46,113 nt of DNA from positions 1 to 46,113 of the forward strand of contig JAFVFY010000064.1 in assembly GCA_017475265.1 (NCBI GenBank), written 5' to 3'. Shown one piece after another: positions 26,474 to 43,839 of this stretch. The first letter of the stretch is position 1; the number at the start of each line of letters is the position of its first letter. The stretch comes from Prevotella sp. (lineage in GTDB: Bacteria; Bacteroidota; Bacteroidia; Bacteroidales; Bacteroidaceae). The position numbers and the translations under genes are program-made. The notes beneath the pieces were generated by a model, which did no database searches, was not told where the DNA came from, and saw nothing but the letters and a program-made list of their open reading frames with translations.

Positions 26474-27979
26474 TTATTCCATCACGAGTTTTCTTGATTG
26501 CCCATTGGCACTCCGCTCGATGCAAAGTCCGTGGGGAGTCTCCATACGGCGGCCACGCAGGTCGTAATAGGTTTTGGGGCCGTCATTATTCTTTTGAGCC
26601 ACATCCTCGATGGCCAAGCCGCCACGGTCAATCATGAAGATAAAGGTGCTCAGGCTTCGTGCAGGCATCTCGACGAGAACCTCTTCTGTAGGTTCGGAAA
26701 TGTCAATCTCCGACTTCTGGCAGAGCTTGTCGCTCTCATTGCCAGTCGACAACCACAGGGTGCCACTGTTCACTTTGTAGGGCAGCTTGATGAGCAGGTC
26801 GCGGGCAGTTGCAATGGTGTCGATAGCCATAACAATGAGGGAATCGCCCTTGATGTAAGCCGAATACTCAAAAGCATCGCCTTCTCCTGAGGTCTTGTCA
26901 CGCGAGGTGGTCAGGCGCGTAGAGCCGGTGACATTCTTAGAGAAGTGAGACATGACGAAAGCGCGAGGCAGCAGTTCGTCCCTTTTGTTGTCGGCACCAT
27001 ACTGGGACTCACCTGTGCCGACGAATGCCCAGTGGGCACGAAGATACCAGTAGATGTAGCCAGAGCAGCCTGCCAACATGCACTCGTTGAGCTCTTCGGC
27101 GAAAATCAGGTTCTCATGCCACGTAGGCAGCTTGCCAGTATTGTCGGTCACGGAGTGCTCCGTCATCCATACTTCCTTGCCATACTTGAGGGGAAGCACG
27201 GCTGCTTTCTTCATATACTCGAGGGGAGCATGACCATAGAGGTGGCCAGCAACGATGTCGACCTGCTTGCGGCACTCCTCGTCTTGCATGAGCGGGTCGG
27301 TATAGTTCTGGGTGAAGCCCAACGGCTCGCCGCTGATAAGCCTTACGCCGGGATAGGTCTCACGGTCGAGCATCCAGCCATAGTTCTTGACAAGCTTTAC
27401 CAAATCCTGAGGGTCATAGAGGCAACCGGAATAGCTCACCCACCAGTCGGGTTCGTTCTGGATAGACACGGCATCGATTTCAACATCGTGGGCCTTCATC
27501 CACTTCAGGAAGGAGTTCAGCCAAGGGAAGAACTTCTCGTAGCAATCCTCACGCAGCTTGCCGCGCTGGTAGCCCTGGTCTTCAGCATTGCCACCCTGAG
27601 CCGTGCCATTGGTCTTGTATACGCCGGGAGGCGACCAAGGAGTACCAAAGACAATGCCACCGCGATTCTTCACAATCTTGGCCGAGGGAAGAGAGCCATT
27701 CCAGTCGTAGTCGCCCCACTGGTCGGCCTTGTCTTCGAGGTTCGGCGAGATTTCCATGCGCAAGATGTTCAATCCTATTTTTGACCTATAGCCGTAAAGC
27801 TTGCTCACAGGAGCGTTGTCGGTGCCGAAAGGTTTCATGGCACCGTCGCAGCAGGCACCGCCGAAGCCAGTAATCTTCTGCATGGGTTCATTGTTCACCG
27901 TTAAGACGTAACGGGGCTTGGCGGCTTGCATACTAGTGAAGGCTGCAAGCGCCATCATACAAGTAAAAATTCTTTTCAT
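26474..27979 (-). CDS. GH30 family xylanase (glucuronoxylanase-like)
   Basis: 501 residues with a signal peptide (IFTCMMALAAFTSMQA). The (beta/alpha)8 core has the acid/base glutamate in SIQNEPDW (E176) and the nucleophile in VWMTEHS (E274), with the GTPWSPPGVYKTNG segment, as in GH30 subfamily 8 glucuronoarabinoxylan endo-1,4-beta-xylanases. A beta-sandwich follows the barrel. The last 40 residues contain YYDLRGRRMETPHGL, reminiscent of C-terminal motifs of secreted Bacteroidales proteins, and might direct surface export. It has its own promoter but lies downstream of the xus genes, so it probably cuts the glucuronoxylan whose fragments the Xus proteins import. Confidence 0.88.
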   Translation of the reverse strand: MKRIFTCMMALAAFTSMQAAKPRYVLTVNNEPMQKITGFGGACCDGAMKPFGTDNAPVSKLYGYRSKIGLNILRMEISPNLEDKADQWGDYDWNGSLPSAKIVKNRGGIVFGTPWSPPGVYKTNGTAQGGNAEDQGYQRGKLREDCYEKFFPWLNSFLKWMKAHDVEIDAVSIQNEPDWWVSYSGCLYDPQDLVKLVKNYGWMLDRETYPGVRLISGEPLGFTQNYTDPLMQDEECRKQVDIVAGHLYGHAPLEYMKKAAVLPLKYGKEVWMTEHSVTDNTGKLPTWHENLIFAEELNECMLAGCSGYIYWYLRAHWAFVGTGESQYGADNKRDELLPRAFVMSHFSKNVTGSTRLTTSRDKTSGEGDAFEYSAYIKGDSLIVMAIDTIATARDLLIKLPYKVNSGTLWLSTGNESDKLCQKSEIDISEPTEEVLVEMPARSLSTFIFMIDRGGLAIEDVAQKNNDGPKTYYDLRGRRMETPHGLCIERSANGQSRKLVME

Positions 27980-28145: not shown

Positions 28146-30452
28146 TTACTCCTCAATGGCGCGCAGCTTTCTTGCCTGCTCAGCCATGATGGTGATGACT
28201 GCTGAGATGTCAGCAACGTCAACAGCATCATCATCGTTTACATAAGCATTTGGATAATCCTCCACGGTCTTTTCACCTGCCATGATACTAATGATTGCCG
28301 AGATATCAGCAACGTCAACTGAACCATCGCCGTTCACGTCACCAGGAATTGCGGGAGTACCAGGATCTGTACCGTACTGGTAAGGGCCATTGTTGTTAAC
28401 TCCCTTAATCTTAACATAGAAGTTCTCAGTACCTGTCTCATTGATAAGCGACTCCTCAGTACCGTCGTTAATCTTCCAGATAACGTTCTTAATCTCGTAT
28501 GTGTTAGCCTCCTTGATTTCAGAAAGGTTGAAAGCGATAGACTTCATTTCGTTTTGAGCATCGGCAGGAATAGTGAAATCAGCCTCGAAGGTCTGCCAAT
28601 CTTCAGTGAAGTTCACATCACCGATAGCTCCCCAGTGCTTGTAGGCACCTGGATCAGCGTGACACTGTGTAGAAGCCTTAGCAGGAGTTTTAGCTTTATA
28701 CTCGAACGAGATGTAAGTTACTTCGCCAGTGCTCAGCGTGCGGTTAGCAACAATCCAGAACTGGTTGTCCCAAGGCTGACCAGTACCTTCAGCTATACCA
28801 GCATCTGGGTCGGCAGGCTGCTCACCAGCTGTCGGTTCTCTCTCAACAGTTTCAATAACGAGCTCTGTTGGGTTGGGCTTGACAGGCACAACAACAATCT
28901 CTTCACCCTCGATCATCTCAAAGGCCATTGATTTGTAGTCGGTGTCAAGGTAAACCTTCCAGATACCATTACCCGGGAGGGTCAGCTTAGCAAGGCTAGC
29001 CGGCTGGTAGTCGAGCCACTCGTCAGGATCGTTCACGATAGCGCCAGAAGGCTTCAGCGTGTTGCTCTTGAAGGCAGCGTCGTTACCGCGGACGGTAGAA
29101 ATCATGATCTGATTGACGTATGCGCCCTGTTCGCCAACAATGGCTGAGAGGCAACCAGCGTCCTCGTCCTCAGTGAACTCGATAGCATTGCTGAGGTCAT
29201 ACTCAAGACCTGTTTTGGTGTTGCAGCCAGCAACGAAGTAACCCTCGTCGAGCACCATGCTCTGCCATGAGAGGTCATCGAAATAGAAGTCAATAGCCTC
29301 CTTATCGGTTGAGTTCAGGTTGAAACAAAGTGACCAACCAGTATCATCGTCGCGAGAGCCATCACTTGGCCAAGAGTAGACTTTTTCAAAAGTCTGCCAC
29401 TCAGTTGTGAAACTTACATCACCTACACCTTGCCAGGTCATGTAGTCTGACGGGTTCTGATGGTGAATCTGAGTACCTGTCGTAACATTCTTTGAAGCCT
29501 TGTAACGGAAACTGATCTTAACCTGTTCACCGGCTTTCCAAGCCTTCGGAGACTCAACCCAGAACTGGTTGTCCCATGATGAAGCATCACCCTCAGTAGT
29601 AGCAGCATTACCATGAACGATGAAATAGTGGTTATCACCTTCAGCTTCGATTGTAGCGGGGAAGGGATCCCAACCACCATCATTATTCATGTTGACTTCT
29701 CTTTCCTTACCCCATGCGCAAATGAGGTAGTTATTCTCCTTGTCGTCGAATCTCACATTAGGATCAGCCCAAGGTGTCTCAGCATTACCCATCCAAGTAG
29801 GAATAGCTGCAGGTGTGGTTTCAACCACGACTGGCTGACCATCGCTGGTAAGCCACTCCTGCCACTGAACGGGCCTCTGGTTTGCCTGGTCTTCATAGAC
29901 GGTAACAGACTTCCATTCAATCGTTGCAGTTGCGCCACCAGGCTGTGCAACGAGGTTACAAGAAGAGCCACCAATACCACTGTACTCCCATTCTACCTCG
30001 GCCCAATCTGTGCCGATGGAAACTTGGTCGTTACTGACTTGCTGGCCGTCTCCCCAACCCCAACCCATGTTGACGTTGATGGTGACAGGTTCTGAAGCCT
30101 TTACCATAGCTACGGCTTTGTAATGGCCGTCAATCTGTGTGGGAATACCATCGCAGATGAAATACTGGTGCCATGCACCACCCTCTACTGCAATCTTGTA
30201 GTACTGAACGCCACCCTGAGTCGTCACGATTTCGTCGCTTGTCTCTTCAGCATCGTCAGTCACCTGGACGTACTTGTAGCCAGCACCGAAGTCGGTCATC
30301 ACACCGTCAAACCACTCAGGTACGTAACCCATCACGTAGAATGGGAAACCAGTGTTCTGGGAGTAGTCAATCTTGTAGACTTCTACCCAGTTCGCTGCCT
30401 TTGCCCCCATGAAGCATGTCAGGAGAGCAACTAGTGTTAGAATTTTTTTCAT
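28146..30452 (-). CDS. Secreted multi-CBM protein with C-terminal dockerin doublet
   Basis: 768 residues with a signal peptide (KKILTLVALLTCFMGAKA). It has three beta-sandwich modules of the CBM4/9/22 type, at about 20-195, 230-410 and 530-690. The second and third are clear duplicates: both have WDNQFW, then YISFEYKAK- or ISFRYKASK-, HW/TWQGVGDV-F and WQTFE. Two dockerin-like repeats follow at 704-763, the second with a weakened loop (YVNDDDAVDVADIS). There is no catalytic domain. The position after xusE and the GH10-like gene, and the module type, suggest a xylan-binding surface or extracellular protein. Confidence 0.8.
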   Translation of the reverse strand: MKKILTLVALLTCFMGAKAANWVEVYKIDYSQNTGFPFYVMGYVPEWFDGVMTDFGAGYKYVQVTDDAEETSDEIVTTQGGVQYYKIAVEGGAWHQYFICDGIPTQIDGHYKAVAMVKASEPVTINVNMGWGWGDGQQVSNDQVSIGTDWAEVEWEYSGIGGSSCNLVAQPGGATATIEWKSVTVYEDQANQRPVQWQEWLTSDGQPVVVETTPAAIPTWMGNAETPWADPNVRFDDKENNYLICAWGKEREVNMNNDGGWDPFPATIEAEGDNHYFIVHGNAATTEGDASSWDNQFWVESPKAWKAGEQVKISFRYKASKNVTTGTQIHHQNPSDYMTWQGVGDVSFTTEWQTFEKVYSWPSDGSRDDDTGWSLCFNLNSTDKEAIDFYFDDLSWQSMVLDEGYFVAGCNTKTGLEYDLSNAIEFTEDEDAGCLSAIVGEQGAYVNQIMISTVRGNDAAFKSNTLKPSGAIVNDPDEWLDYQPASLAKLTLPGNGIWKVYLDTDYKSMAFEMIEGEEIVVVPVKPNPTELVIETVEREPTAGEQPADPDAGIAEGTGQPWDNQFWIVANRTLSTGEVTYISFEYKAKTPAKASTQCHADPGAYKHWGAIGDVNFTEDWQTFEADFTIPADAQNEMKSIAFNLSEIKEANTYEIKNVIWKINDGTEESLINETGTENFYVKIKGVNNNGPYQYGTDPGTPAIPGDVNGDGSVDVADISAIISIMAGEKTVEDYPNAYVNDDDAVDVADISAVITIMAEQARKLRAIEE
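28149..28343 (-). other. Dockerin-like doublet of the CBM protein
   Basis: First loop DVNGDGSVDVADIS is canonical; the second, YVNDDDAVDVADIS, has lost the first aspartate. A basic tail (EQARKLRAIEE) follows, so the doublet is slightly internal. Confidence 0.75.
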
Positions 30453-30536: not shown

Positions 30537-32210
30537 TTACTCTCCGCCAAGTGCCTCGCAGAAAGCCTTGTAAGTGGCGGTGCGCACCCAATCACTGCTA
30601 CCTGTCTTTTTCGCCCAGAGACCTACAGGATCGCTAGTGTCAACCATGTTGCCTTTGCAAATGCCTGCCTGCTTGTCGTGCGGAATCTTGGTCATGTAGC
30701 TCTTGATGACGTATGCATAGTATTCGGCCAGCTGCTCACGCTGCTCGTCCTTAAACTTCTCATCTGCCGGTACGTTGGCACCGTCAGCATTCTGATACTT
30801 GATGTCGAAGTTGGAGATACGGATGAGCTTGCCAGTGGAAGCAAGGTTTTCAAGAAGGGTGTTCAGGGTTGCCACGTTTTCAGCTTGCTTTGCCTTATCC
30901 TCACTATAAACGAGATTGAGCTTGGCATTGATACCGTCAATCTTTGCACCCTTGGCATCCCAGATACCAATCCAGTATTTAAGGCTTTCCATCTTCTTGA
31001 CCTCATCAAGCCCTGACTCGCTGATGAAGAACTTCAACTCGGCCGGGTTCCCACCATACTTCTCGAAAGCTGCGCCTGCTACCTTCGACACTACCGGAGC
31101 ATAGTTCTCGCTGCCAAGAATGTCTTGCCAGAATATCTGGTCGGTAGAGTGCTTGAGGTCGTACATACCGTTTTCCAACTCTGCCTTAGGATCAATGGGT
31201 TCGTCAATGAGGTCGAACAAGTTGATACGGCCCGCATTAATCTTCATCAGTCCGTCGCACCAAGTATTGAGTGCATAGTTGATGGTGTCTGTCAGCTCCT
31301 TATCTGTCTGGTCGCGGTGGTTGTCAGGGAAATAGCCTACCTGTACCTTCTGGATATTAATGGTACCATTCTTACCGTTCTCAATCCTCAAGTAGCCTTC
31401 TGTCACGTCTTCGGCACTCTGAGCCTCCACGACAATCTTGTACCATTTGTCTGATTTTACTCTCCACTTTCCGTCTGCAGTTGCGGTTCCTGGAACTGGA
31501 TTGCCAGAGAAGGTGATGGTAAAGGATACAGATTCCTTATTCGCCTGTGCCCTTGCCCAGAATGTCGTGGTAAATTTAGCCTTCGGGTCAACTTCAAAAC
31601 CGTCAACGATGCGGACATCAGATGCTGTACCTATCTGAAGTACGTTCTGATCCTCAAACTTGACGATAGAAGCCTTACCCTTTTCTATTTTATCCTTGTC
31701 GTAGGCACCCGCACTCATCGTGTTGAAATCTATGGCCTTTCCTTCTACATAGTCAACCGGGATCTCAACAGGAGCCGTTAGCAACTTCAGCCAGTCGTCG
31801 GCCTGATTAGCATTGGCCACGATAGGACTGCCATATACTTCATAACCTATTTCTTCAACGTGGGTGAGGAGGTCGCTCATATCGAGAAAGTTCATCACAC
31901 CTTTTGCATTGACGATGGTTCCCGACATGAGGGTATTCCCAAAAGCGACATTGTCGAAATTGGTGACTGCTGCGGCATGAGCCAGTTCCTGCTTGTTGAA
32001 ATCAGCCACCTTGAGCGTTGCGCCGAGCGACATGTTAGGATACTTTTCCCTGTCTATGTATGACTTGACAGGATTATAGTCCTTGTATGGCTCAACGAAA
32101 GAGGGGTCAGGCGCTGCCCTGAAATCGTCCGTCACGTTATAGTCGGCACAGGAAACGACAAGTACACCTACTGCCAAAGGCATGAGAGAGTTTCTAAAAA
32201 ATGTATTCAT
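30537..32210 (-). CDS. GH10-like surface lipoprotein, probably catalytically inactive
   Basis: A 557-residue lipoprotein (lipobox VVSCADY, Cys21). The layout is a GH10 xylanase barrel split by a CBM-like beta-sandwich (about 150-295), as in Xyn10C-type enzymes next to xus genes. The barrel halves align by eye, with key changes. The acid/base position is kept in LFDLIDEPID (E337), but the preceding invariant Asn is D336. The nucleophile motif (ITELD in the family) reads ISNFD, so the catalytic Glu is N467. The GHTLVWH segment reads GSPIVAN, and the QxH motif after DGI reads KLN. I infer a xylan-binding protein derived from a xylanase. It follows xusE in the operon. Confidence 0.78.
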   Translation of the reverse strand: MNTFFRNSLMPLAVGVLVVSCADYNVTDDFRAAPDPSFVEPYKDYNPVKSYIDREKYPNMSLGATLKVADFNKQELAHAAAVTNFDNVAFGNTLMSGTIVNAKGVMNFLDMSDLLTHVEEIGYEVYGSPIVANANQADDWLKLLTAPVEIPVDYVEGKAIDFNTMSAGAYDKDKIEKGKASIVKFEDQNVLQIGTASDVRIVDGFEVDPKAKFTTTFWARAQANKESVSFTITFSGNPVPGTATADGKWRVKSDKWYKIVVEAQSAEDVTEGYLRIENGKNGTINIQKVQVGYFPDNHRDQTDKELTDTINYALNTWCDGLMKINAGRINLFDLIDEPIDPKAELENGMYDLKHSTDQIFWQDILGSENYAPVVSKVAGAAFEKYGGNPAELKFFISESGLDEVKKMESLKYWIGIWDAKGAKIDGINAKLNLVYSEDKAKQAENVATLNTLLENLASTGKLIRISNFDIKYQNADGANVPADEKFKDEQREQLAEYYAYVIKSYMTKIPHDKQAGICKGNMVDTSDPVGLWAKKTGSSDWVRTATYKAFCEALGGE

Positions 32211-32262: not shown

Positions 32263-33471
32263 TCAATTCTTCACATACTTCATATTGAAGAATTCCTTCT
32301 TGTTCGACTCACGGGTCTGCACAACCAGCGTATCGTTGGTAGCTACCTGCACATCGTTCTCAAGAATCCAGGGAACTTCCTTTCCCGACTTGTCCAACTT
32401 TGTTCCGATAAGCCTACCTTTCTTGAAGGTCACATTGTATGCCAGTCGGAGTATGTCGCGCTGTACAGGCTCACCATTCAAGTTGCCCCATTGGTAGTCC
32501 TTGTATTCAGGCCTCTCGGTTCCTTTAACGATGAATTCACCCGAGCCTGATGACGGCACCTCTTCGTCATCGCTTGTAATGACGCACTTATCACCATCGA
32601 ATGTGAGGATAAGATTGCAAAGCTGCGAAGGTCTGGTGTCTCCCGATGAGTCTTTACCTATATTAATATAGACTGGGAAGATAGCCTGCTTCATGTTCTT
32701 GGTGTTGATAGCACACACTTCGTCATTCTGGTTCACAGGGTTCTCCTTATAACGCTCAACATCCGTGTTCACCAACTTGAAGTCCTTACGGACAACAATA
32801 TTAGTGACTTCATTCTCTGTCACATTGTCAACGCCTCGGCGGATATACTTTCCCTGCCAGGGATTCATGTACTTCACCAAGTAAAGCACGTAGTCCTTTG
32901 CAAGGATATCCCAGTCCTCGGTGTTGGTTCGAGAGGGATTGAGTCCCTCACGCGGCTTACCCGTGAGGATATGGTCGAAGCCATTCGCATTAGTCATCAC
33001 AAGAGGAATGACGTATGTATTGTCAACGGCTTTCTCATCATTGAAGAACGCATCGGTGAACTCCACCTCTACATATCCTCGCTGGTCGCCATTGTAGGGA
33101 ATGACGTTGGATGACAGCTTATAATACGATGATGGCATAGGGCGCACAGGCTCAGCCGGGTTTCCTCCTTCATCGGTAAAATAGAGGTTGTCACAAAGCG
33201 TCTCCTCCACAACTATGTCCACCGTTGCGTTACGTCCGCCGTAAGCACCGCCCATGGTTGACCATATACGGCACTTGTGAGCGTTGTCGAGCGTATTGTC
33301 GTAGATGTCGTTACCAAGCACGAGTGTACGCACGGGGTTCTGATAAGCGAAGTAGGCAGTTGTGCCATTTTCAAAGTCAGGGAACTCATGGTCTGCATTA
33401 TAGCAAGAGGCATACGTGAGGGAAAGTGCCCCCAAAGCTACTCCGTAAATATATTTCTTCAGTTCCATCAT
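32263..33471 (-). CDS. xusE: XusE-like surface glycan-binding lipoprotein
   Basis: 402 residues with a lipoprotein signal (YGVALGALSLTYASCYNAD, Cys23). It has an N-terminal DUF1735-like beta-sandwich (the segment YVEVEFTDAFFNDEKAVDNT and YVIPLVMTNANG) and a C-terminal beta-rich domain ending FFNMKYVKN, the arrangement of XusE-type and other SusE-positioned proteins. Such proteins bind polysaccharide at the cell surface. Position directly after the second SusC/SusD pair is the strongest evidence; the domain match is moderate. Confidence 0.72.
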   Translation of the reverse strand: MMELKKYIYGVALGALSLTYASCYNADHEFPDFENGTTAYFAYQNPVRTLVLGNDIYDNTLDNAHKCRIWSTMGGAYGGRNATVDIVVEETLCDNLYFTDEGGNPAEPVRPMPSSYYKLSSNVIPYNGDQRGYVEVEFTDAFFNDEKAVDNTYVIPLVMTNANGFDHILTGKPREGLNPSRTNTEDWDILAKDYVLYLVKYMNPWQGKYIRRGVDNVTENEVTNIVVRKDFKLVNTDVERYKENPVNQNDEVCAINTKNMKQAIFPVYINIGKDSSGDTRPSQLCNLILTFDGDKCVITSDDEEVPSSGSGEFIVKGTERPEYKDYQWGNLNGEPVQRDILRLAYNVTFKKGRLIGTKLDKSGKEVPWILENDVQVATNDTLVVQTRESNKKEFFNMKYVKN

Positions 33472-33525: not shown

Positions 33526-35379
33526 TTACTCCCATCCCTTGTTCTGCTTGAGGGCAGTCCACTTGAGTACTTCTGCTTTAGGAATGGGTCCGTAGAGCTG
33601 ATAGGAATTGTCGAATTTACGCTCCTCCACCTCAATGACACGATAGGAGAGTTCTTTGGTTTCGTCGTTAAGGTCAATCTGCATTCCCTTTACACTCTCA
33701 TTGAGCGGCAACATCCATCTGCGCAAATCCCAGAATCGCTTATTCTCAAAACAAAGCTCTAAACGCCGCTCGTTACGTATGAGACTTGCCATCTTAGCCT
33801 GGTCTTCAGCACACTGCTCCAGATAGACATCTCCCTCAGGAAGTGGCATTCCGATTTCGTTGGTGGCGAGTCCTGCCCGCTGTCGGATGGCATTGATGAC
33901 ATCGTAGGCGGTGTACCCTACGCCTGTTGGGTCGCTCTTGGGTCCCCATGCGTCGTTGGCAGCCTCTGCGTATGCAAGGAAGATTTCAGTGTAGCGTATA
34001 CGCGGAAAGACGTGATATTGTTCAATTTGTGAACTTGAAAGCGGGCTCACGTCATCACGGAGGAGCTTCTTCAGGTAATAGCCTGTTCGTGTTGAAGAGC
34101 TATTGTTGTTAAGGTTATCCAACATCTCGTTGATGTCTTTTGAATATGTACCTGTTATGATAACAGCCCTTCTGTACGTCGTTCCGTTGTAGAGTATGTC
34201 GTTATCCAAGCGCGGGTCGCGATTAGCGTATGGGTTCTTTGCGTCATAGCCAGAATTGGGGTCAGTGATGGGAAGTCCATTACGCATCGGGTAAGCGTCG
34301 ACAAGGTTCTGTGAGGGATTGACACGTCCGCTGCCAAAAAGCGTCGGTGGGAAGTTTTCTGCTTCCTGACTTGAGTTCTTTGCTCGGTCAGCACGCCACA
34401 GTATTTCCGGCATTTCAGAAGCACCGGGGTCCAGCTTCGTCTTGTTCTTGTACCAGATGTTGCCCGTGGGGTCGAATCCATCCAATCCACCGATGCGCTT
34501 GAGCACATTGGCACAAAGCGCTGCGGCCTCTGCCGACGTCACGCCACTCTGCTCGCGGAAGGCCGGACTTGCTGCGAGCAGGGCAACCTGAGCCTTAATG
34601 GCCTCAGCAATCTTCGCAGACATAAGGTTTGACGCCTTAATGCCAAATACGAGGTTGTAGTTGGAATAGTTTGCACCAAGAGCCTTGTACTTTTCAGGTA
34701 TGGCGTCATTATTGTCTATGTCTGCATAATCAATGGGTAGAAGTGACATGGCACTATCGCAGTCGGCATAACACTGTTTGACGCAGTCAGCGAAAGAGGC
34801 CCGTGGCTGGTTGTAGTCTGAGCTACCGTCCTCAGCTTTAGTCAGCAAGGGCACGCCGTAGAGCTGTCCGTCGTCTGCATAGCCTCCATGCGCCTGTAGC
34901 AGATAGTAGTAAAGCAAGGCACGCAGTCCGAAGGCCTCACCTTTCAGACGGTCAATGAACATCTGCTGCTTTGAAGCAGCCGAAGGTGACCACTTTACCT
35001 TCTCCACGTTTGCAAGGAAGAGGTTGATATACTGTATGCCATCCTTACAAGTGTTCCATTGAGACATCGGGTCGTTATCAGAAGCCCATGTACCTGTTGC
35101 CATGTTCATATATTGGCTGTTCTTCTGATTGGTGACAGCATCGTCTGTGGCAACATCGGTCTGCGTGGTTGTCATATAAGGTAGGCGGTCGTAGCCGTAA
35201 ATCAGCAGACCATGAGCATAGTCAGCCTCCTCATACATAGCATCCTCCTGCCGGGTGTTTTCATCTGCCGGCTCGAACATGTCGTCGCATGAGGTGAGTG
35301 CTACGCCAAATAGTAAAGAATAAAGAACAGCGAACAAACCCTTCTTGCTCTTTTTCCTTTGATTTATCTTCGTCATCAT
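33526..35379 (-). CDS. xusD: SusD/RagB family lipoprotein (second pair)
   Basis: 617 residues; lipobox VALTSCDDM (Cys31). The SusD fold is shown by the N-terminal helix region with YINLFLANVEKV, the TPR-type segment RLKGEAFGLRALLYYYLLQAHGG, and the C-terminal part ERRLELCFENKRFWDLRRWM. SusD proteins form a lid over their SusC partner and deliver oligosaccharides. It is paired with the 993-residue SusC gene upstream. Confidence 0.87.
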   Translation of the reverse strand: MMTKINQRKKSKKGLFAVLYSLLFGVALTSCDDMFEPADENTRQEDAMYEEADYAHGLLIYGYDRLPYMTTTQTDVATDDAVTNQKNSQYMNMATGTWASDNDPMSQWNTCKDGIQYINLFLANVEKVKWSPSAASKQQMFIDRLKGEAFGLRALLYYYLLQAHGGYADDGQLYGVPLLTKAEDGSSDYNQPRASFADCVKQCYADCDSAMSLLPIDYADIDNNDAIPEKYKALGANYSNYNLVFGIKASNLMSAKIAEAIKAQVALLAASPAFREQSGVTSAEAAALCANVLKRIGGLDGFDPTGNIWYKNKTKLDPGASEMPEILWRADRAKNSSQEAENFPPTLFGSGRVNPSQNLVDAYPMRNGLPITDPNSGYDAKNPYANRDPRLDNDILYNGTTYRRAVIITGTYSKDINEMLDNLNNNSSSTRTGYYLKKLLRDDVSPLSSSQIEQYHVFPRIRYTEIFLAYAEAANDAWGPKSDPTGVGYTAYDVINAIRQRAGLATNEIGMPLPEGDVYLEQCAEDQAKMASLIRNERRLELCFENKRFWDLRRWMLPLNESVKGMQIDLNDETKELSYRVIEVEERKFDNSYQLYGPIPKAEVLKWTALKQNKGWE

Positions 35380-35424: not shown

Positions 35425-38406
35425 TTACATGGTAACCTTGACACCAAGGTTATAGAAGCGCGTCTGTGGAGCATAGCCAACGTTGGTCTCCATAATCTTG
35501 CGATTCTTTGAGATAGTGAGGAGGTCATTACCGTTGATATAAACCGAGAGTTCCTTTACGACCTTACCCATCATGCTTTTGGGGAAGTCGTAAGTGAGCT
35601 GCACCTTGCGGATGTTGAAGCGGTCGGTGCTGTAGAGCCAGAATGAAGATGCAGCGGCGTTGCTATTGTGATTCTGTGCGGTCAGACGCGGATGCGTAGC
35701 AGTCTCAGCCGTCTCCGGTGTCCAGCGGCCACGAGCATAGACAGAGTACTTGCCGTCTCCCTGCATATAATAGTAACTGTTGTTCTTCATGGCGTAAGCC
35801 CCAAACTGGCCATTGCAAAGCATGAAGAGTGTGAAATTCTTATACTTGAGGGTGAGATTCACACCAATGTTCCACGGTGTTCCGATGTTGCCATATCCAG
35901 AGCCATCAGGATTACCTTTTTCGTCCAAGCCAACGACATTGCCTGACTTGCCAAGGACAACCATGTCTTGGTTATTGATAAGACCATCACCGTTAACATC
36001 CTCATACTTCAAGTCGCCAGGCTGTATTGTTCCACCCAACTTTGACTCAGGGAGGCTTTTCTTCAGGGTGAGCTTTCCATTTTCAGGATTCTCGTCAAAA
36101 TCAGCCATAGTATAGAATCCCAGACAGTTGTATCCCCAGAGTGCATCAATGGGTTGGCCAGTGGTGTACTTGTTAGGTGCGGCAGGATCTAAGTTTTCAT
36201 CATACGTCTTCCACTTTGTCTTGAGATAGGTGCCTACCAATCCTAATTCTGCGTAAACCTTACCAAACTGCTTGCGTCCTTTGATGCTGAAGTCAAGCCC
36301 CTTGCGGTTTTGAACATTGTTGTTGACCACTGGCATGAATGTGCTTCCGGAGAGACCACCCTGCAAATGAGAGGGGAATGTGGTGAGGTTCTTGACGATA
36401 AAGCCATCCATATTCGTGTTGAAGAAGGTCAGCTCGGCAGATAAGAGCTTATTGAGGAACGAGCCCCGGAGGCTTATAGAAAACTCCTTTCTCTTGATAA
36501 AGTCGAGGGAAGGATTTGATCCCGATCTGGAATAAGTATGGTTGGTACTTACCCCTTCATTCCATGAGAAGCCGCTACCCGTTGTGTCCCAGACAGCATC
36601 GTACAGATAGTAGTAATCATTATCCTTGTAGACATCTATATCCTCTTTAAGATTGCTGTAGGATGCACTAAGCAACAAATCGTCAACCCAGTTCACATTC
36701 TTCAGAAAGTTCTCCTTGGCCAAATTCCAACCGAGGGTGAATGAAGGTGAGAATGCTCCACGATGACCTTCAGCCAGACGGGCTGAATGTACGGCAGCCA
36801 ACGAAAATTCTGCAAAGTAACGACCCATGTAGTCGTAACCACCGAGAAGGCCGAGGTTGGCATTAGCATAGCGATGGTATTCGCCACTACGTGTGGTAGT
36901 GTACATATTTCCGAGGAGCATACCCGTGACATGATGTATGCCTCCGAAGGTGTTGTCGTAATCGAAATGGCCATTCCAGCTTATGGTCTGACGATACTTT
37001 GTGTCGGACATGGCCATGTGGCCCGTCACGATTTCGTCGTTTTGCTGAGTAAGAGCAACGATGGCATCCTCTGAGTTGTAGTTACTCCATGTGGGAATGA
37101 ACACAGCGTACTTGTTGTCATACGAGAGGCTGTAGTTAGCAGCATAGTCGATGGCGAACAATGTCTTGAATGACAGACCCTTTAAGAACTTGCTCATGTC
37201 GTAGATGATACCGGCATCGAACTGGAACTGACGACTGACAGCCTGTGTCTTACCGCCGAAGTAGCAGTCGGCGATGGCATTAGTCTGTGTGGTCTTGGTG
37301 CCACCGGGGAAATACTTTCCATCGAGGAGGTTGAGCGACTTTCCCAGGATGGCCAGTGCCTTGCTGGCATTGGGGTCAACCATATCGATATCAATCAGGG
37401 GTGCTGCGTTCTGAGGGAAGTTCGGACGTCCAAGGCCTTTCTGTTGACCGTTATTATCAAATCCTCCTGCCTCTGCCCAGAAGTTTCCCTTGTTCTTATG
37501 TTCATTGTAGAAGGTAGCACTTGCATTGGCAACACCCTTGATGACTTTGTTAATGACCAAGTCCACATTACCGCGCACGCTGAAACGGTCGGTATAGTTA
37601 TCCTTCGCATCACCAAAGTCGAGGAGGTCACCAGCTCTATAGTAGTTGATGTTGGTGTAGAAGTGAGCACGTGTACCACCACCCTGAATTTCAACCGTAC
37701 CTTCCGAACGGTTATATGACTTGCGCACATACTCGTCGGAATAGTAGTTCACGTTGGGATAACGGTAAGGATTCACCCCAGAGGCATGATTGTAGATATC
37801 CATCTGGCTGTAGTAAGCGTCACCAACAGCTTCGTTGTAGAGCGTCATATACTCTGCCGACCCCAGATACTCTGGGAATTCCTTTGCGAAGTGGAAGCCA
37901 GTGTTTGCATTAGCTTTTACCTGCAGGCCGTCCACCTTGCCACGCTTGGTGGTAATCAGGATGACTCCCTTGGCCCCCTTGGCACCATAGAGTGCCACGG
38001 CCTGTGCCCCCTTGAGGAAAGTCACCTGCTCAACCTCTGAAGGAAGCACATTGTTTGACGGACGCTTCACTCCGTCGATAATAACCACTGGAAGGTTGCT
38101 ATTGTCGTTATTGTCAAGACGTTCGTTGTCCATACCCCAAAGGTTGTTTCCATTCCACCCGCCGACAAGGGCATACATGTCTTCAAGGCTACTCATGGTG
38201 TAATCCTTTTTCGACAGCTCTTCCATGTCAACGTATGAAACGCCTCCGAGGAGATGGTCAGCGTCAATGTCGCGGAAAGCAACATGGACTTTCTTTTTGG
38301 CCACGATTGAGTCAGCGTCGTCAGCGGTCTGGGCAATAACCGTCAATGGCGAAGCTGCCAACATGGCAAATAGAAATATGTTTGTTGTTATCTTTTTCAT
38401 AATCAT
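35425..38406 (-). CDS. xusC: SusC/RagA TonB-dependent transporter (second pair)
   Basis: 993 residues with signal peptide (NIFLFAMLAASPLTVIAQ). It lacks the N-terminal carboxypeptidase-regulatory-like domain present in most SusC proteins and passes almost directly to the plug (VVIIDGVKRPSNNVLPSEVE ... GVILITTKRG). The 22-strand barrel follows, ending TRFYNLGVKVTM with the terminal aromatic/hydrophobic pattern of outer membrane barrels. It imports xylo-oligosaccharides with XusD by inference from the locus. The short N-terminus matches XusC-type transporters as I know them. Confidence 0.86.
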   Translation of the reverse strand: MIMKKITTNIFLFAMLAASPLTVIAQTADDADSIVAKKKVHVAFRDIDADHLLGGVSYVDMEELSKKDYTMSSLEDMYALVGGWNGNNLWGMDNERLDNNDNSNLPVVIIDGVKRPSNNVLPSEVEQVTFLKGAQAVALYGAKGAKGVILITTKRGKVDGLQVKANANTGFHFAKEFPEYLGSAEYMTLYNEAVGDAYYSQMDIYNHASGVNPYRYPNVNYYSDEYVRKSYNRSEGTVEIQGGGTRAHFYTNINYYRAGDLLDFGDAKDNYTDRFSVRGNVDLVINKVIKGVANASATFYNEHKNKGNFWAEAGGFDNNGQQKGLGRPNFPQNAAPLIDIDMVDPNASKALAILGKSLNLLDGKYFPGGTKTTQTNAIADCYFGGKTQAVSRQFQFDAGIIYDMSKFLKGLSFKTLFAIDYAANYSLSYDNKYAVFIPTWSNYNSEDAIVALTQQNDEIVTGHMAMSDTKYRQTISWNGHFDYDNTFGGIHHVTGMLLGNMYTTTRSGEYHRYANANLGLLGGYDYMGRYFAEFSLAAVHSARLAEGHRGAFSPSFTLGWNLAKENFLKNVNWVDDLLLSASYSNLKEDIDVYKDNDYYYLYDAVWDTTGSGFSWNEGVSTNHTYSRSGSNPSLDFIKRKEFSISLRGSFLNKLLSAELTFFNTNMDGFIVKNLTTFPSHLQGGLSGSTFMPVVNNNVQNRKGLDFSIKGRKQFGKVYAELGLVGTYLKTKWKTYDENLDPAAPNKYTTGQPIDALWGYNCLGFYTMADFDENPENGKLTLKKSLPESKLGGTIQPGDLKYEDVNGDGLINNQDMVVLGKSGNVVGLDEKGNPDGSGYGNIGTPWNIGVNLTLKYKNFTLFMLCNGQFGAYAMKNNSYYYMQGDGKYSVYARGRWTPETAETATHPRLTAQNHNSNAAASSFWLYSTDRFNIRKVQLTYDFPKSMMGKVVKELSVYINGNDLLTISKNRKIMETNVGYAPQTRFYNLGVKVTM

Positions 38407-38460: not shown

Positions 38461-40476
38461 TTACCATCCTGGATTCTGTGGGAATCCTTCATAAAGATAA
38501 ATATCCTTGTCAGGAAGTGGGAACCAGTAGTGCTTTGACTCAAAGCGCCGGGTAATGAGTTCCTCCTTGTGGAAGTTACCGACCTTTGCATCCTTCGGGT
38601 CATGACTCTTAAACCATTCGGCATCCTCCAGTCGCTCGAACTCGTGAGAGTATTTCACTGTGTAGGGAGGTTCAGTCAAGAGGAGCCAGCGCTGAAGGTC
38701 GCACCAACGGAACCCTTCGAAGGAAAGCTCGACTGCGCGCTCACGACGCACCTCATCGATGAAGTGCTCCTTGGTGTCCATAAGGTTGGCCTGTACATGC
38801 TCCATAGGATAATCGTCGGAGTTCACACGGTCGCGAAGCACGTTGATGGCGTCGACAGCCGACAGCGAACAATAGGTGGGTCTATCCTTCAGCTCTTTTG
38901 CACTATTTGAAACAACTGCCTGTGCCTCTGCATACATCAGATAAATATCAGCAAGGCGCATATAGGGAAGATAGCACTCGAAGTTGTAGTCCCAGTCATA
39001 CCATTTGTCACCTTCATTGCACTGGTGAGGCACCAACTTCTGTATGAAATATCCCGTGCTGCTGGCATCGGCCACTGAGCGCATGGCTCCGCCGGTATAA
39101 AGATCGCAATACTCCAGCTTCTTCTGGTCGGAGTTCAAGGCATCTGTGCTGAGGACATAGTGGAAACCGTCGAAGATAATGTCATGGTAGAAACGCGGGT
39201 CGCGGTTCTTGTAAGGATGTTCCGGATCCCACCCAGACTCTGGGTTCAGCACATACTGGCCATTGCGTACAAGATAGATGGGCTGTCCGTTAGCCATACC
39301 GTACTGGTCGATGACGTTAGCCGTTGGATGGTGTATAATCTTGTCGTGAGCCACGAGACCAGCGACCTTCGGGCCGAAGATCTTTGCACAGTTCCAGTTA
39401 GCAGTGTTCAAGCCAGAGCAAACGCCACGGAAGATGGCCTCTGTAGAACCAGGCACGTTCCAACCTTGCTTGACGGTATAGAATATGTCAGAGTAGCTGG
39501 TCTCAAAATTCTCGTCTTTAACATGGTCGTAGATGTTGGAATACCTAAAATCTGCGAGCTTATAGGTAACCTGCTTTCTGTTTACCATTTCAAGTACCCT
39601 GCCGAATGTCTCAGCAGCCTTCTTGCAGTATTCGACATCATAATCATAGGTCTTGCCAGTAGAACTTGCATCCAGCAGTTTGTAAGTTTCTCCCCTGTTG
39701 TACTTCTCAAACTCCTTCATGAGTGGTGAGCCAGCCCAGAGATAGCACTTTCCGAGGTAACAGAGTGCCATGAATTTGTTGACACGCAGATAGTTCACAA
39801 CTGACGTCTGCATACCAGCCAAGGTCTCGTCCCATCCCTGCGGGTCTAAAGGCAGGAGGTCGGCAGCTCTTTCAAAGTCCTCTGCACAGCGGTCGGCACA
39901 TTCCTGGAAGGAAAGACGTGGAAGCTCGGGGATGCTTGTAGCCTCAAAAGCCTCATCAATGTAGGGCAGACCACCAAAGTAGCACATCAGCTCGAAATGC
40001 CACCATGCGCGGAAGAAATACATCTGTCCGAGCAGCAGGTCGCGCTCCTCGTCAGTTCCTACGAGCGCCTTGATGTTTGCAATACCCATGTTACACTTAC
40101 GGATGCAGTACCATGCGCTTCTCCAGAGTGATTGTCTGTCTCCATTCAGCCAGCACTGGCTGTTGGTGTACCAGTTACGATAGTTGCCAAGGTCTACCTG
40201 ATGATCCATGTGTGCATAACCTTCAGGGTTGTGGACGGCATCATCGCCAAAGTTCCAAGCAGTGCAATAGTTGACCTTCTCCTTGTCAGGAATCAGATTA
40301 TAGATTTCCTCAATATATCCCTGGAAGTTGCGGTAGTTCTTGAAAGCCTCATCCTCTGCCACAATAGACTCCGGGTCTTTCTCGAGCCAGTCCTTGCAGG
40401 AAGTGAGAGAAGTGCCGGTTGCCAGCAGGATGAGCGAACCACACAAGAGGGACTTTATATTATTATTGTATTTCAT
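38461..40476 (-). CDS. xusB: SusD/RagB family lipoprotein (first pair)
   Basis: 671 residues; lipoprotein signal CGSLILLATGTSLTSCKDW (Cys27). SusD hallmarks are the N-terminal EKDPESIVAEDEAFKNY, GQMYFFRAWWHFELMCYFGG in the TPR region and the C-terminal ERAVELSFEGFRWCDLQRW. As part of the first SusC/SusD pair it should bind long xylan chains at the surface. Confidence 0.88.
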   Translation of the reverse strand: MKYNNNIKSLLCGSLILLATGTSLTSCKDWLEKDPESIVAEDEAFKNYRNFQGYIEEIYNLIPDKEKVNYCTAWNFGDDAVHNPEGYAHMDHQVDLGNYRNWYTNSQCWLNGDRQSLWRSAWYCIRKCNMGIANIKALVGTDEERDLLLGQMYFFRAWWHFELMCYFGGLPYIDEAFEATSIPELPRLSFQECADRCAEDFERAADLLPLDPQGWDETLAGMQTSVVNYLRVNKFMALCYLGKCYLWAGSPLMKEFEKYNRGETYKLLDASSTGKTYDYDVEYCKKAAETFGRVLEMVNRKQVTYKLADFRYSNIYDHVKDENFETSYSDIFYTVKQGWNVPGSTEAIFRGVCSGLNTANWNCAKIFGPKVAGLVAHDKIIHHPTANVIDQYGMANGQPIYLVRNGQYVLNPESGWDPEHPYKNRDPRFYHDIIFDGFHYVLSTDALNSDQKKLEYCDLYTGGAMRSVADASSTGYFIQKLVPHQCNEGDKWYDWDYNFECYLPYMRLADIYLMYAEAQAVVSNSAKELKDRPTYCSLSAVDAINVLRDRVNSDDYPMEHVQANLMDTKEHFIDEVRRERAVELSFEGFRWCDLQRWLLLTEPPYTVKYSHEFERLEDAEWFKSHDPKDAKVGNFHKEELITRRFESKHYWFPLPDKDIYLYEGFPQNPGW

Positions 40477-40566: not shown

Positions 40567-43500
40567 TTAGAGGTAAAGTTTAAATCCGAAGTTGAAACGT
40601 CTGACTGTGGGATAGGCACCGCCTCCACCACTCCAACCGTAGTTACTCTCACGGTCGTCAGGCATCTTTGTAATGAGGAAGAGGTTGTTACCATTGAGGT
40701 AAATCTTCAGGCTTGAGAAACCAATGTTCTTAATCCAGCCCTTCGTCCAGGTGTAGGCGACTTCCACATTCTTCAGACGGAAATAGGAACCATCAAAGAG
40801 ATACTGGGTACCGTCGTTATAGGCGACTTGTGTGTTGAAGCGCGGCACGACAACCTCACCAGTTCCGGCTGCAGGATTCCACCACGAGCCATTGTCGTAT
40901 ACGGTGAGCAGCTGGTCTCCGAATGAGGGCAGTCCTACGTCACGTGTTACACCCGTTACGCCATAAAGCTGTGCGAAGCAGGAGAAGCCTTTCCACTCCC
41001 ATCCGATGGTGGCGTTGTAAGTGTGCTCCGGGTTTCCAGTGTATCCGTAAGGAGCCTGGTCGTTTGTCTCGTCCACGACACCGTCGCCATTGAAGTCCAC
41101 GATGTAGTGGTCGCCGATGAGCACGGTCTCGTCGCTTGTCTGACGCGGAGGTGCGCTGTAAAGTTCATCGTAGGTATTGATAAAGCCATTGTCGATGAAT
41201 GAATGGTATTGTCCTTGAGAATAGCCCTGTGCCTTGCGGTAGCTCGGAATGAGTTCGGGGTCATCCTTCAACAATATCTTATTGTGTGCGTAGGTATAGT
41301 TGGTGTTTGCCCAGAAGCGCATACCATTGTTCAACACCTTGTTGAAGCGCAGCTCCACCTCGAAACCAGAGTTCTTGATCTTACCCTTGTTGATGTCGGG
41401 GGTCATGGCAGCACCATAGTATGAGGGCACCGAGCGGTCGGCTCCGGAAATGAAGATGTCGTAACGGTCATCGCGGAACCAGTCGAAGCTACCAGCAAAC
41501 ATACCATTTCCAAAAGCATAGTCGAAACCGAGGTTCATCTTCTTCACGGTAGCCCAGCGAAGGTCGGGGTTAGCAATAGTAGCTTCCTTATAGCCGGTGA
41601 ACGGACTGTTGCCACGACTACCTGTATTACCAATATTCACCTCGTAAGGACCAATGACCTCCCAGCCTGTCAGGTAGGCAAAGCGATAGCCCGAGCTGTC
41701 ATCACCTATCTCACCAATAGAACCACGGATCTTCAGCATGTCAATGATGCCCTTCTCCCTAAGCGGCTTCATGAATTTCTCTTCTGAAATCATCCAGCCT
41801 GCGGCTCCTGAGCAGAAGAAAGCAAAGCGGTAGTCGGGAGAGAATCGCTGTGAACCGTTGTAAGCACCGTTGAACTCTGCGAAATACTTGCCCATCAGGT
41901 CGTAGGTTGTACGGAACACCCAGTCCTCACGGCGATTCTCCAAGTCGGCGTTACCGGCATTGATACGACGCTTCCAGTTACCCATCACCGAAACGTTATG
42001 TATGCCAAACTGACGGGCCCAGAAGAGCTGGAGCGACATTTCCGTAGCACGGCTCGTATTTTTCACGCTACCGGCCTGGGTGGACCAGTCGCGCTTTTCG
42101 TAGAAGTCGAAGCCTGTCTTGGCAAAGATGTCATTCTCATACAGCAGCTGTCCATCCTCGGGAAGAATGTAGGCAGTATTGTTGACATGGCCACCACCGG
42201 CGGCATTGATACCACGCTCAGCCTCATCGAACTGGTTGTCCCAGGAGATGGTTCCACGGGCAATAAGTCCCTTAGTGATGAAGTCGAGATTCTGCTCGAG
42301 AGAGAAGTCAGTGAATACGCGGGTAATTGTTTTCAGCTCATAACCAGCCGTTGCCACGTTCATGGCCGAGTTTGCCATGTTGGAAGCTGCCAATCGAGAC
42401 CATCCCCATGCGCCATTAGAGAACTTAACGGGGTAAACGTTGGGTGGCATACGGTAAGCACCTGCCCAGTTCTGCTGCTGGAACCACTCGCCGCTATTAC
42501 CATAATAATAACGTGGAGTCTTCTGCTGGGCATTGGAACCTGCCAAGTTGACCCTGAACTGGGTAGTCTTCGTAATCTGGAAGTCGAGGTTTGAACGAAC
42601 ATTCAGACGGTTGTAGGCATAACCACCCTCGTAACCCTGATTGTTGTCCCAAATCCTGGTCATATCACCCTCGTTCTGATAGTCGAAGGCAACGAAATAT
42701 TTCACGAAGGACGTACCGCCGGAGAAATTGAGGTTCGCATTATACGACATGGCGGTATTCCTGAACATTTCATCCTGCCAGTCAACATTCGGATAACGCT
42801 CTGCCTGACTGTAGTCGCCAAGATAGTTACCATCGGCATCATAGTTTGGCTTCACGGTATGGTCCTGATTGCGGAAGAGGTTGATGAATGTCTGCGGACG
42901 ATAATATGCCCACGAGGCATCACCACCCAGAGCAAGCTCATGCTCGATGGCCTGGTTGCGGAACATATATCCATCGTAAGAATCGTACTTGCGCGGGAGC
43001 TTCGATACTGCCTTCAGCGTAGCGTTGAAACCGACGTCGATTCTAGCCTTGCCCTCCACACCACGCTTCGTGGTAATAAGGATAACACCATTAGCACCTT
43101 CCACACCGTAAACGGCTGTTGCCGAGGCATCCTTCAGCACAGAGACCGTAGCCACAGAGGTGATGTCAACGGACTTAATCTCACGCTTCACACCATCGAC
43201 GAGGATAAGCGGCTGGGCATCCTGGTTCCAGGCAGCGGCACCACGAATGTAGATTCGCGGGTCTTCCTCACCAGGCTGACCTGAAGAGGCAATGGTGGCG
43301 ATACCCGGGAGGTTACCCGTAAGGGCCGCACTCACACTACCGATACCCGCTGAACGTTCAAGAACTTCACCTGTGGTCTGCGTAATGGCACCCACCACAG
43401 ATGCTTTTTTCTGCTGGCCGTAACCCACGACGACGACTTCATCAAGCTTAGTGTTCTCAGCAAGCGTAACCTTGAAGCTGCGCTGCTTGCCAACCTTGAT

Positions 43501-43839
43501 TTCCTTGGTAATCATACCGACGTATGAGATTACCAACACTGTCTGTTCCGAAGGTACATCCAGCCGGAAGTTACCGTCGAAGTCGGTAACAGCACCCTTC
43601 GACGTGTTTCCCTTCACTACGACCGAGGCGCCAATGAGCCCCTCGCCGTTGGAATCGACGACCGTTCCCTTGACTGGGATGTCCTGTCCCAACACTGTGG
43701 TACAAAACATCAACGCCATCATCACTAAAACACCATGTAAAGTGAATGGCGCCGGACGAAGAACAGTCTCTTTCACAAAGTTTGTCAACTGTTGTTTCAT
43801 CTTGACTGATTTTGATTCATATTCATTGAGTTTATTCAT
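40567..43839 (-). CDS. xusA: SusC/RagA TonB-dependent transporter (first pair)
   Basis: 1090 residues as annotated; the Met at 43800 (MKQQLTNFVKET) is an alternative start. A hydrophobic signal segment (LVMMALMFCTTVLGQ) is followed by a CarboxypepD_reg-like domain (VKGTVVDSNGEGLIGASVVV), the TonB-box-like DEVVVVGYGQQ, the plug (PLILVDGVKREIKSVD ... GVILITTKRG) and a long barrel ending RRFNFGFKLYL. It is the first gene of the xylan operon, with a promoter about 80 bp upstream and a phased repeat block behind that. Confidence 0.9.
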   Translation of the reverse strand: MNKLNEYESKSVKMKQQLTNFVKETVLRPAPFTLHGVLVMMALMFCTTVLGQDIPVKGTVVDSNGEGLIGASVVVKGNTSKGAVTDFDGNFRLDVPSEQTVLVISYVGMITKEIKVGKQRSFKVTLAENTKLDEVVVVGYGQQKKASVVGAITQTTGEVLERSAGIGSVSAALTGNLPGIATIASSGQPGEEDPRIYIRGAAAWNQDAQPLILVDGVKREIKSVDITSVATVSVLKDASATAVYGVEGANGVILITTKRGVEGKARIDVGFNATLKAVSKLPRKYDSYDGYMFRNQAIEHELALGGDASWAYYRPQTFINLFRNQDHTVKPNYDADGNYLGDYSQAERYPNVDWQDEMFRNTAMSYNANLNFSGGTSFVKYFVAFDYQNEGDMTRIWDNNQGYEGGYAYNRLNVRSNLDFQITKTTQFRVNLAGSNAQQKTPRYYYGNSGEWFQQQNWAGAYRMPPNVYPVKFSNGAWGWSRLAASNMANSAMNVATAGYELKTITRVFTDFSLEQNLDFITKGLIARGTISWDNQFDEAERGINAAGGGHVNNTAYILPEDGQLLYENDIFAKTGFDFYEKRDWSTQAGSVKNTSRATEMSLQLFWARQFGIHNVSVMGNWKRRINAGNADLENRREDWVFRTTYDLMGKYFAEFNGAYNGSQRFSPDYRFAFFCSGAAGWMISEEKFMKPLREKGIIDMLKIRGSIGEIGDDSSGYRFAYLTGWEVIGPYEVNIGNTGSRGNSPFTGYKEATIANPDLRWATVKKMNLGFDYAFGNGMFAGSFDWFRDDRYDIFISGADRSVPSYYGAAMTPDINKGKIKNSGFEVELRFNKVLNNGMRFWANTNYTYAHNKILLKDDPELIPSYRKAQGYSQGQYHSFIDNGFINTYDELYSAPPRQTSDETVLIGDHYIVDFNGDGVVDETNDQAPYGYTGNPEHTYNATIGWEWKGFSCFAQLYGVTGVTRDVGLPSFGDQLLTVYDNGSWWNPAAGTGEVVVPRFNTQVAYNDGTQYLFDGSYFRLKNVEVAYTWTKGWIKNIGFSSLKIYLNGNNLFLITKMPDDRESNYGWSGGGGAYPTVRRFNFGFKLYL

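Follow-up and report, generated by a model that had tools for sequence, protein, structure and literature searches.

Within a stretch of 46,113 nucleotides from a Prevotella sp., called the window here, lies a xus locus in which the place of the xylanase Xyn10C is taken by a GH10-like lipoprotein of 557 amino acids (30537..32210; open reading frame, Pfam match and alignment) that is catalytically dead by motif. All window features described below are on the minus strand. It is quite likely that this protein descends from a Xyn10C-type ancestor, does not hydrolyse xylan and acts as a surface glycan-binding protein for it. The ancestor would have been the GH10 xylanase of Xyn10C type that normally comes next after xusE. 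With the nucleophile and most of the sugar-seating residues of the −1 and −2 subsites lost, xylan would no longer be hydrolysed; instead, decorated xylan chains would be kept next to the pair of SusC/SusD transporters by the CBM-like insert together with the barrel cleft in its remodelled form. Cutting would be left to the GH30 enzyme of the cluster and to intact GH10s encoded elsewhere in the genome. Inactivity and xylan binding are transferred by analogy from a homologue in Bacteroides ovatus, and direct contact between the ligand and the rebuilt cleft is something we only infer.

Membership of the GH10 family can be recognised in several ways. The Pfam GH10 profile matches residues 308 to 507 of the protein at 49.1 bits (cut-off 22.1), and 28/28 clade members match it at E <= 0.01. 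The best Foldseek matches are the GH10 xylanases 1us2 and 2w5f (E 1.8e-12, TMq 0.30), so the earlier claim that the GH10 fold is retained is borne out. The AF2 model, made from the 28-row alignment, has a mean pLDDT of 70.9 with residues 1-111 below 50 and is too poor for cleft geometry; together with the Foldseek matches it agrees with a GH10 fold, the cleft lying beyond the reach of both. A sequence search of the PDB gave nothing at E <= 0.01, either with the window protein or with a profile of 28 members; a search of a plasmid collection with the window protein gave zero matches, and NCBIfam yielded no family for the 557-residue protein. The N terminus carries a lipoprotein signal peptide (32148..32210) with the lipobox VVSC and acidic residues directly after it. 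Cys21 of the lipobox is invariant (28/28 aligned members), and the product is predicted to be a surface lipoprotein.

The loss of the catalytic apparatus can be read from an alignment with intact GH10s from the window's own genome. Where active enzymes have their nucleophile Glu, the window protein has Asn467 (codon 30810..30812), part of the sequence SNFD (466-469, 30804..30815; context LIRISNFDIKY) that replaces TELD or SELD. The first-pass annotation had named this substitution correctly, numbering included, and Asn stands there in 63/63 distinct clade sequences, as it did in 28/28 of an earlier, smaller alignment. A different Glu aligned as nucleophile, the observation which that annotation had set against its own reading, was looked for, and the alignment with intact GH10s has none. 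The remaining motifs are changed as well. GNTLM (91-95, 31926..31940) replaces xNEMK, so that NEMK has become NTLM; GSPIVAN (127-133, 31812..31832) stands for GHTLVWH; NAKLN (428-432, 30915..30929) has lost QxH through Q to K and H to N changes (QMH to KLN); and QWC..D has become KGN..D. The earlier claim that GHTLVWH and QxH are altered is thus correct, and the same claim for VNE can be accepted in part: FDLIDE (332-337, 31200..31217) replaces WDVVNE, turning VNE into IDE by an Asn to Asp change, but the acid/base Glu337 is retained in the window and in 56/63 clade sequences, the others having Lys (4), Asp (1), Gly (1) or Arg (1).

These changes are shared by the whole clade. Among the 63 distinct sequences, Met95 (in place of the Lys of NEMK), Asp469 and Lys519 are each found in 63, Ser128 and Asn133 in 62, Lys430 in 57 and Asn432 in 54, and position 336, the Asn of VNE in active enzymes, holds Asp in 60 and Glu in 3. 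The Lys of NEMK and both His and the Trp of GHTLVWH are gone in 63/63, as is the His of QxH, while its Gln is gone in 62/63; the Asn of NEMK (Asn92) is retained in 6/63 members, the window's included. What marks an active GH10, namely a nucleophile Glu, an NE pair at the acid/base and the sugar-binding residues of NEMK, GHxxxWH and QxH, is missing. Judged by sequence, with motifs altered at six sites, the catalytic apparatus has been lost, and because the nucleophile has gone together with most residues that seat the sugar in the −1 and −2 subsites, hydrolysis of xylan is not expected.

The clade itself is widespread. Twenty-seven related loci, with best-segment identities of 64-75%, come from sequences titled Prevotella, Prevotellaceae, Bacteroidaceae or Bacteroidales, several of them from the fore-stomachs of yak or water buffalo. 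Within the genus, 51/299 sampled genomes (own included) match at E <= 1e-100; loci were taken from 30 of these, from six more and from G668, which was found in the family search. In the family, 11/399 sampled genomes (own included) have a full-length member at >= 825 bits, the next match being at 205 bits. In the order, the only full-length match among 295 genomes, few of which belong to the window's family, is in the window's own genome, and the best other match has 39% identity over residues 298-553. Compared with the window in 27 pairs, the barrel has a median dN/dS of 0.10 (1 pair saturated in dS), the whole protein 0.13 (1 pair saturated) and the insert 0.16 (7 saturated), figures that are rough because dS is near saturation (median pS about 0.65).

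The insert (residues 150-296, 31323..31763) has predicted strands between 155 and 293, mostly at high pLDDT, and would form a beta-sandwich; where it sits, and the weak profile matches that relatives have, make it CBM4-like. CBM_4_9 is matched at E <= 0.01 by 8/28 members, the window protein not being one of the eight. The earlier statement that a CBM insert remains therefore stands for the predicted beta-sandwich, its CBM nature having weak profile support. The insert is the least conserved region of the protein, so that conservation does not speak directly for binding by it. A domain 43% identical to it (query residues 137-300) was found behind a dockerin-like piece in a short frame, L027:377-1177 (G000:C83:1-2686), and the insert seems, from this sequence match, to move as a module.

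The genes around the GH10-like gene are arranged, in order of transcription, as SusC, SusD, SusC, SusD, XusE-like, dead GH10, a CBM/dockerin protein and GH30. The first pair consists of SusC-like 1 (40567..43839, by profile) and SusD-like 1 (38461..40476), the latter assigned by weak NCBIfam SusD matches, its position and homologues in the same place at related loci; SusC-like 2 (35425..38406) and SusD-like 2 (33526..35379) were both assigned by profile. The XusE-like lipoprotein (32263..33471) has BT_3987-like_N and DUF5627 domains and is a homologue of BACOVA_03430 (PDB 3N91; match E 6.4e-61). Downstream of the GH10-like gene stands a secreted protein (28146..30452) that combines CBM regions with a dockerin-type repeat; its residues 57-187 resemble chains 4MGS and 4QPW, named glycosyl hydrolase family 10. 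No catalytic domain was recognised in it, and its homologues score from 260 to 1065 bits against the window copy. The last gene encodes a GH30 glucuronoxylanase-like enzyme (26474..27979; profiles), which is likely to be active, as it has both NEPDW and WMTEH.

This arrangement recurs at the related loci. A homologue of the CBM/dockerin protein lies directly 3' of the GH10-like gene in 27/27 loci; XusE precedes it in 26/27, the second SusC/D pair in 25/27 and the first pair in 24/27, the misses being cuts at contig ends. GH30 falls inside the fetched flank in 7/27 loci. Farther downstream, 46 frames were listed for 14 loci, and 20 of these proteins, from 10 loci, were tested. L051 and L063 have GH10-CBM6 and an acetylesterase-like protein, and L044 has GH3 and GH43-CBM6, all of xylan type; others are not of this type (AAA helicase, AAA-ATPase, DUF6057, PD40, OEP and GH2). 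The published xus core has the order susC-susD-susC-susD-xusE-xyn10C, as given in part of PMC7848910, and this synteny, taken with the loss of the motifs, upholds the earlier description of a pseudoenzyme in the Xyn10C position. The Xyn10C of that core (Prevotella bryantii, Pm25, BACOVA_04390), a surface xylanase, follows xusE in the same way (excerpt of PMC7848910) and likewise has a GH10 barrel with a CBM-type insertion between beta3 and the beta4 motif, but its catalytic motifs are intact whereas those of the window protein are replaced. The slot is occupied by a GH10 with intact motifs in L097, L098 and L099, from three genomes of the window's genus. The window's own genome has five other GH10 frames, of which L001, L002, L003 and L005 retain the main motifs; L004 keeps VNE and TELD and is altered elsewhere. 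At L010 and L029 (G055:C75), an intact GH10 is directly preceded by a GH10-like protein whose acid/base motif reads VSD.

A published and experimentally tested precedent exists for this interpretation, since the window locus matches that of BACOVA_03431. In PUL-XylL of B. ovatus, BACOVA_03431 is an inactive GH10 surface lipoprotein that binds glucuronoxylan and corn xylan, as described in the relevant section of Rogowski et al. 2015 (PMC4491172), and it adjoins BACOVA_03430, whose structure is PDB 3N91. The PUL-XylL locus was located in genome G708 through a protein with 100% identity to 3N91 across 311 residues, and on the strength of this identity the genome was taken as B. ovatus. The gene that follows, of 754 amino acids, is presumed from its position to be BACOVA_03431; its motifs are GGVLCSN, IIGNPL, ILLNA and SDLSM, and a GH30-like gene comes next. 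The order at this locus, SusC-SusD-SusC-SusD-XusE-dead GH10-GH30, equals that of the window except for the CBM/dockerin gene. Another locus in G708, L131, was dropped as a candidate for PUL-XylL, its XusE-type protein not being identical to 3N91 and GH115 lying downstream. This SusC-SusD-SusC-SusD-XusE locus contains a second GH10-like protein (L131:6802-8559) near GH115. Its nucleophile motif reads SDLN and its acid/base residue is Cys, so that it is probably another dead GH10 of this genome. In G733, the gene homologous to the dead GH10 of B. ovatus is split into two frames (L178:8579-10793), and a SusD-type neighbour is also in pieces.

BACOVA_03431 and the window protein are both GH10-like lipoproteins with a lost nucleophile and a disrupted −2 subsite (the B. 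ovatus features from the same part of PMC4491172), and both are preceded by two SusC/D pairs and a protein of the 3N91 type and have GH30 downstream. They differ in that the presumed BACOVA_03431 is 754 residues long, carries Asp and Asn in the nucleophile and acid/base positions, respectively, and has an insert of much greater size, whereas the window protein has 557 residues, a single beta-sandwich insert, Asn at the nucleophile position and Glu at the acid/base, with the CBM/dockerin gene standing before GH30. In the barrel, the window protein shares 26.3% identity with the presumed BACOVA_03431 and 30.7% with the active Xyn10C-like enzyme of its own genome; these values, together with the separate position of the clade from BACOVA_03431 in the tree, mean that function is transferred across a wide gap. 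With that distance in mind, the analogy favours the earlier suggestion of reuse as a surface xylan-binding protein. Other surface glycan-binding proteins, SusE/SusF and BACOVA_04391 (3ORJ), are alike in predicted role and lipid anchor, but 3ORJ is built of beta-sandwich domains (excerpt of PMC4491172) and the window protein of a TIM barrel. The same source offers a comparison with GH18 chitin-binding lectins that lack catalytic residues, in which a glycosidase fold has likewise turned binder; family and ligand differ.

Whether the cleft is still in use can be judged in part from its conservation. TIM barrel strand ends are often conserved for structural reasons, so that conservation of the former site favours a cleft in use but does not prove it. 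Thirty former active-site positions have a conservation of 0.921 against 0.823 in the rest of the barrel (28 rows; 26/10000 random draws as high), and the same contrast in 63 rows is 0.91 against 0.80 (19/10000). In a control of 58 intact-motif enzymes the contrast is much larger (0.892 vs 0.645; 0/10000), so that the clade's cleft stands out less from its barrel than a working active site does. Eight members of the B. ovatus clade have the same tendency in weaker form (0.812 vs 0.745; 479/10000). The active-like comparison rows, 59 and 58 in number, were picked by motifs, which makes their nucleophile Glu circular, and one of the 59 is degenerate at several sites.

Other explanations for a conserved, motif-less GH10 must be considered alongside a xylan binder. 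A decaying pseudogene or an assembly error is hardly conceivable: the frame is open and Asn467 present in 63/63 distinct sequences with a barrel dN/dS of about 0.10, so Asn467 is neither a sequencing error nor chance, and nothing in the clade sequences or dN/dS was found to support decay. The gene belongs to a conserved clade and is neither an error nor dying. A barrel under such strong purifying selection even though most of its sugar-binding residues are gone, in a fixed SusCD-SusCD-XusE gene order, could also be a structural partner that binds no glycan and serves as a scaffold for docking SusC, SusD and XusE in an outer-membrane complex, xylan contact being left to the insert alone. This is unlikely, for a cleft in use accounts more readily for the conservation of former active-site residues above the rest of the barrel.

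It is less probable still that the protein is an enzyme of altered chemistry, in which Glu337 and another residue cleave xylan or some other bond. The conserved cleft and the prevalence of Glu337 would fit such an enzyme, but members with Lys, Arg, Asp or Gly at that position (7/63) share the remaining pattern, so Glu337 is no evidence for catalysis; the invariant Asn467 leaves no carboxylate at the nucleophile position, NEMK has lost its Lys, GHTLVWH its His and Trp, VNE its Asn and QxH its His, and the analogous B. ovatus protein was inactive when assayed, according to the section of PMC4491172 that describes it. A surface protein that binds xylan is the reading we prefer, with several points counting against it: the wide gap across which function is transferred, the retention of Glu337 in most members, the low conservation of the insert, a site-to-barrel contrast below that of intact enzymes and the roughness of dN/dS near saturation.

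Conversion of the enzyme at this slot may have happened more than once. A tree was made from 70 rows and 284 columns, with the insert and motif columns left out; the rows were drawn from 146 aligned GH10 rows (188 hits before contained duplicates were removed), 15 of them from the clade's 63. In the best tree, the Prevotella clade (100/100) has a long stem (1.61 changes per column) and lies inside a group of 49 rows (99/100) that also contains 30 intact enzymes, a third group from Bacteroides and L134. The B. ovatus clade stands apart from the 49-row group, and intact enzymes lie between the two dead clades. When the Prevotella clade was joined in AU tests to the B. ovatus clade, the third Bacteroides group or L134, the union was not rejected (p 0.219, 0.432 and 0.36, respectively). 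A conversion independent of the B. ovatus clade is the better-supported reading, although the AU test leaves a single origin unrejected.

The third Bacteroides group comprises L132:9036-10808 (L112), L096:8974-10737 (L085) and L133:9088-10833 (L113), the L132 and L133 proteins being 72% and 66% identical to that of L096. All three members have lost the Lys of NEMK and, from GHTLVWH, the Trp and one or both His, and their nucleophile position holds Glu (L112/L132), Gly (L085/L096) or Ala (L113/L133). By these residues the group looks like a series in mid-decay. L112 is without both His but has Glu and VNE, which indicates that sugar-seating residues were lost before the nucleophile there, and the Glu, Gly and Ala at one position indicate that loss of the nucleophile, at least, was repeated, unless Glu was regained. 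We consider it possible, with rather more doubt than confidence, that the xusE-adjacent slot turned non-cutting more than once independently in Bacteroidales (rumen Prevotella, B. ovatus and the third Bacteroides group) and that the Prevotella cleft was rebuilt into a strongly conserved ligand site (M95, S128, N133, N428, N467, D469 and K519) specific for decorated xylan.

An inactive GH10 as a surface xylan binder in the same slot has been known since 2015 from BACOVA_03431, and this part of the finding is therefore less novel than the first-pass annotation assumed. Among the passages available from open-licence literature, PMC4491172 alone reports experiments of its own on a GH10 that is inactive by nature. 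It is cited by PMC11610566 and PMC4855328, the first of which raises the possibility that a Phocaeicola GH10 is a binder too. No description of the Prevotella clade was found in such passages, including those of PMC12269599, PMC8631079, PMC11107044, PMC11784079 and PMC13188876. What is new is that Prevotella has a separate and widespread clade whose fixed substitutions are its own and whose members have one CBM-like insert. This information can be used to correct the annotation of GH10-like genes in the clade, since counts based on such annotation would come out too high for this Prevotella group, and it provides a second, possibly independent, case of an enzyme turned binder. If repeated conversion is true, the slot next to xusE would offer a natural series of steps from enzyme to binder at a single locus.
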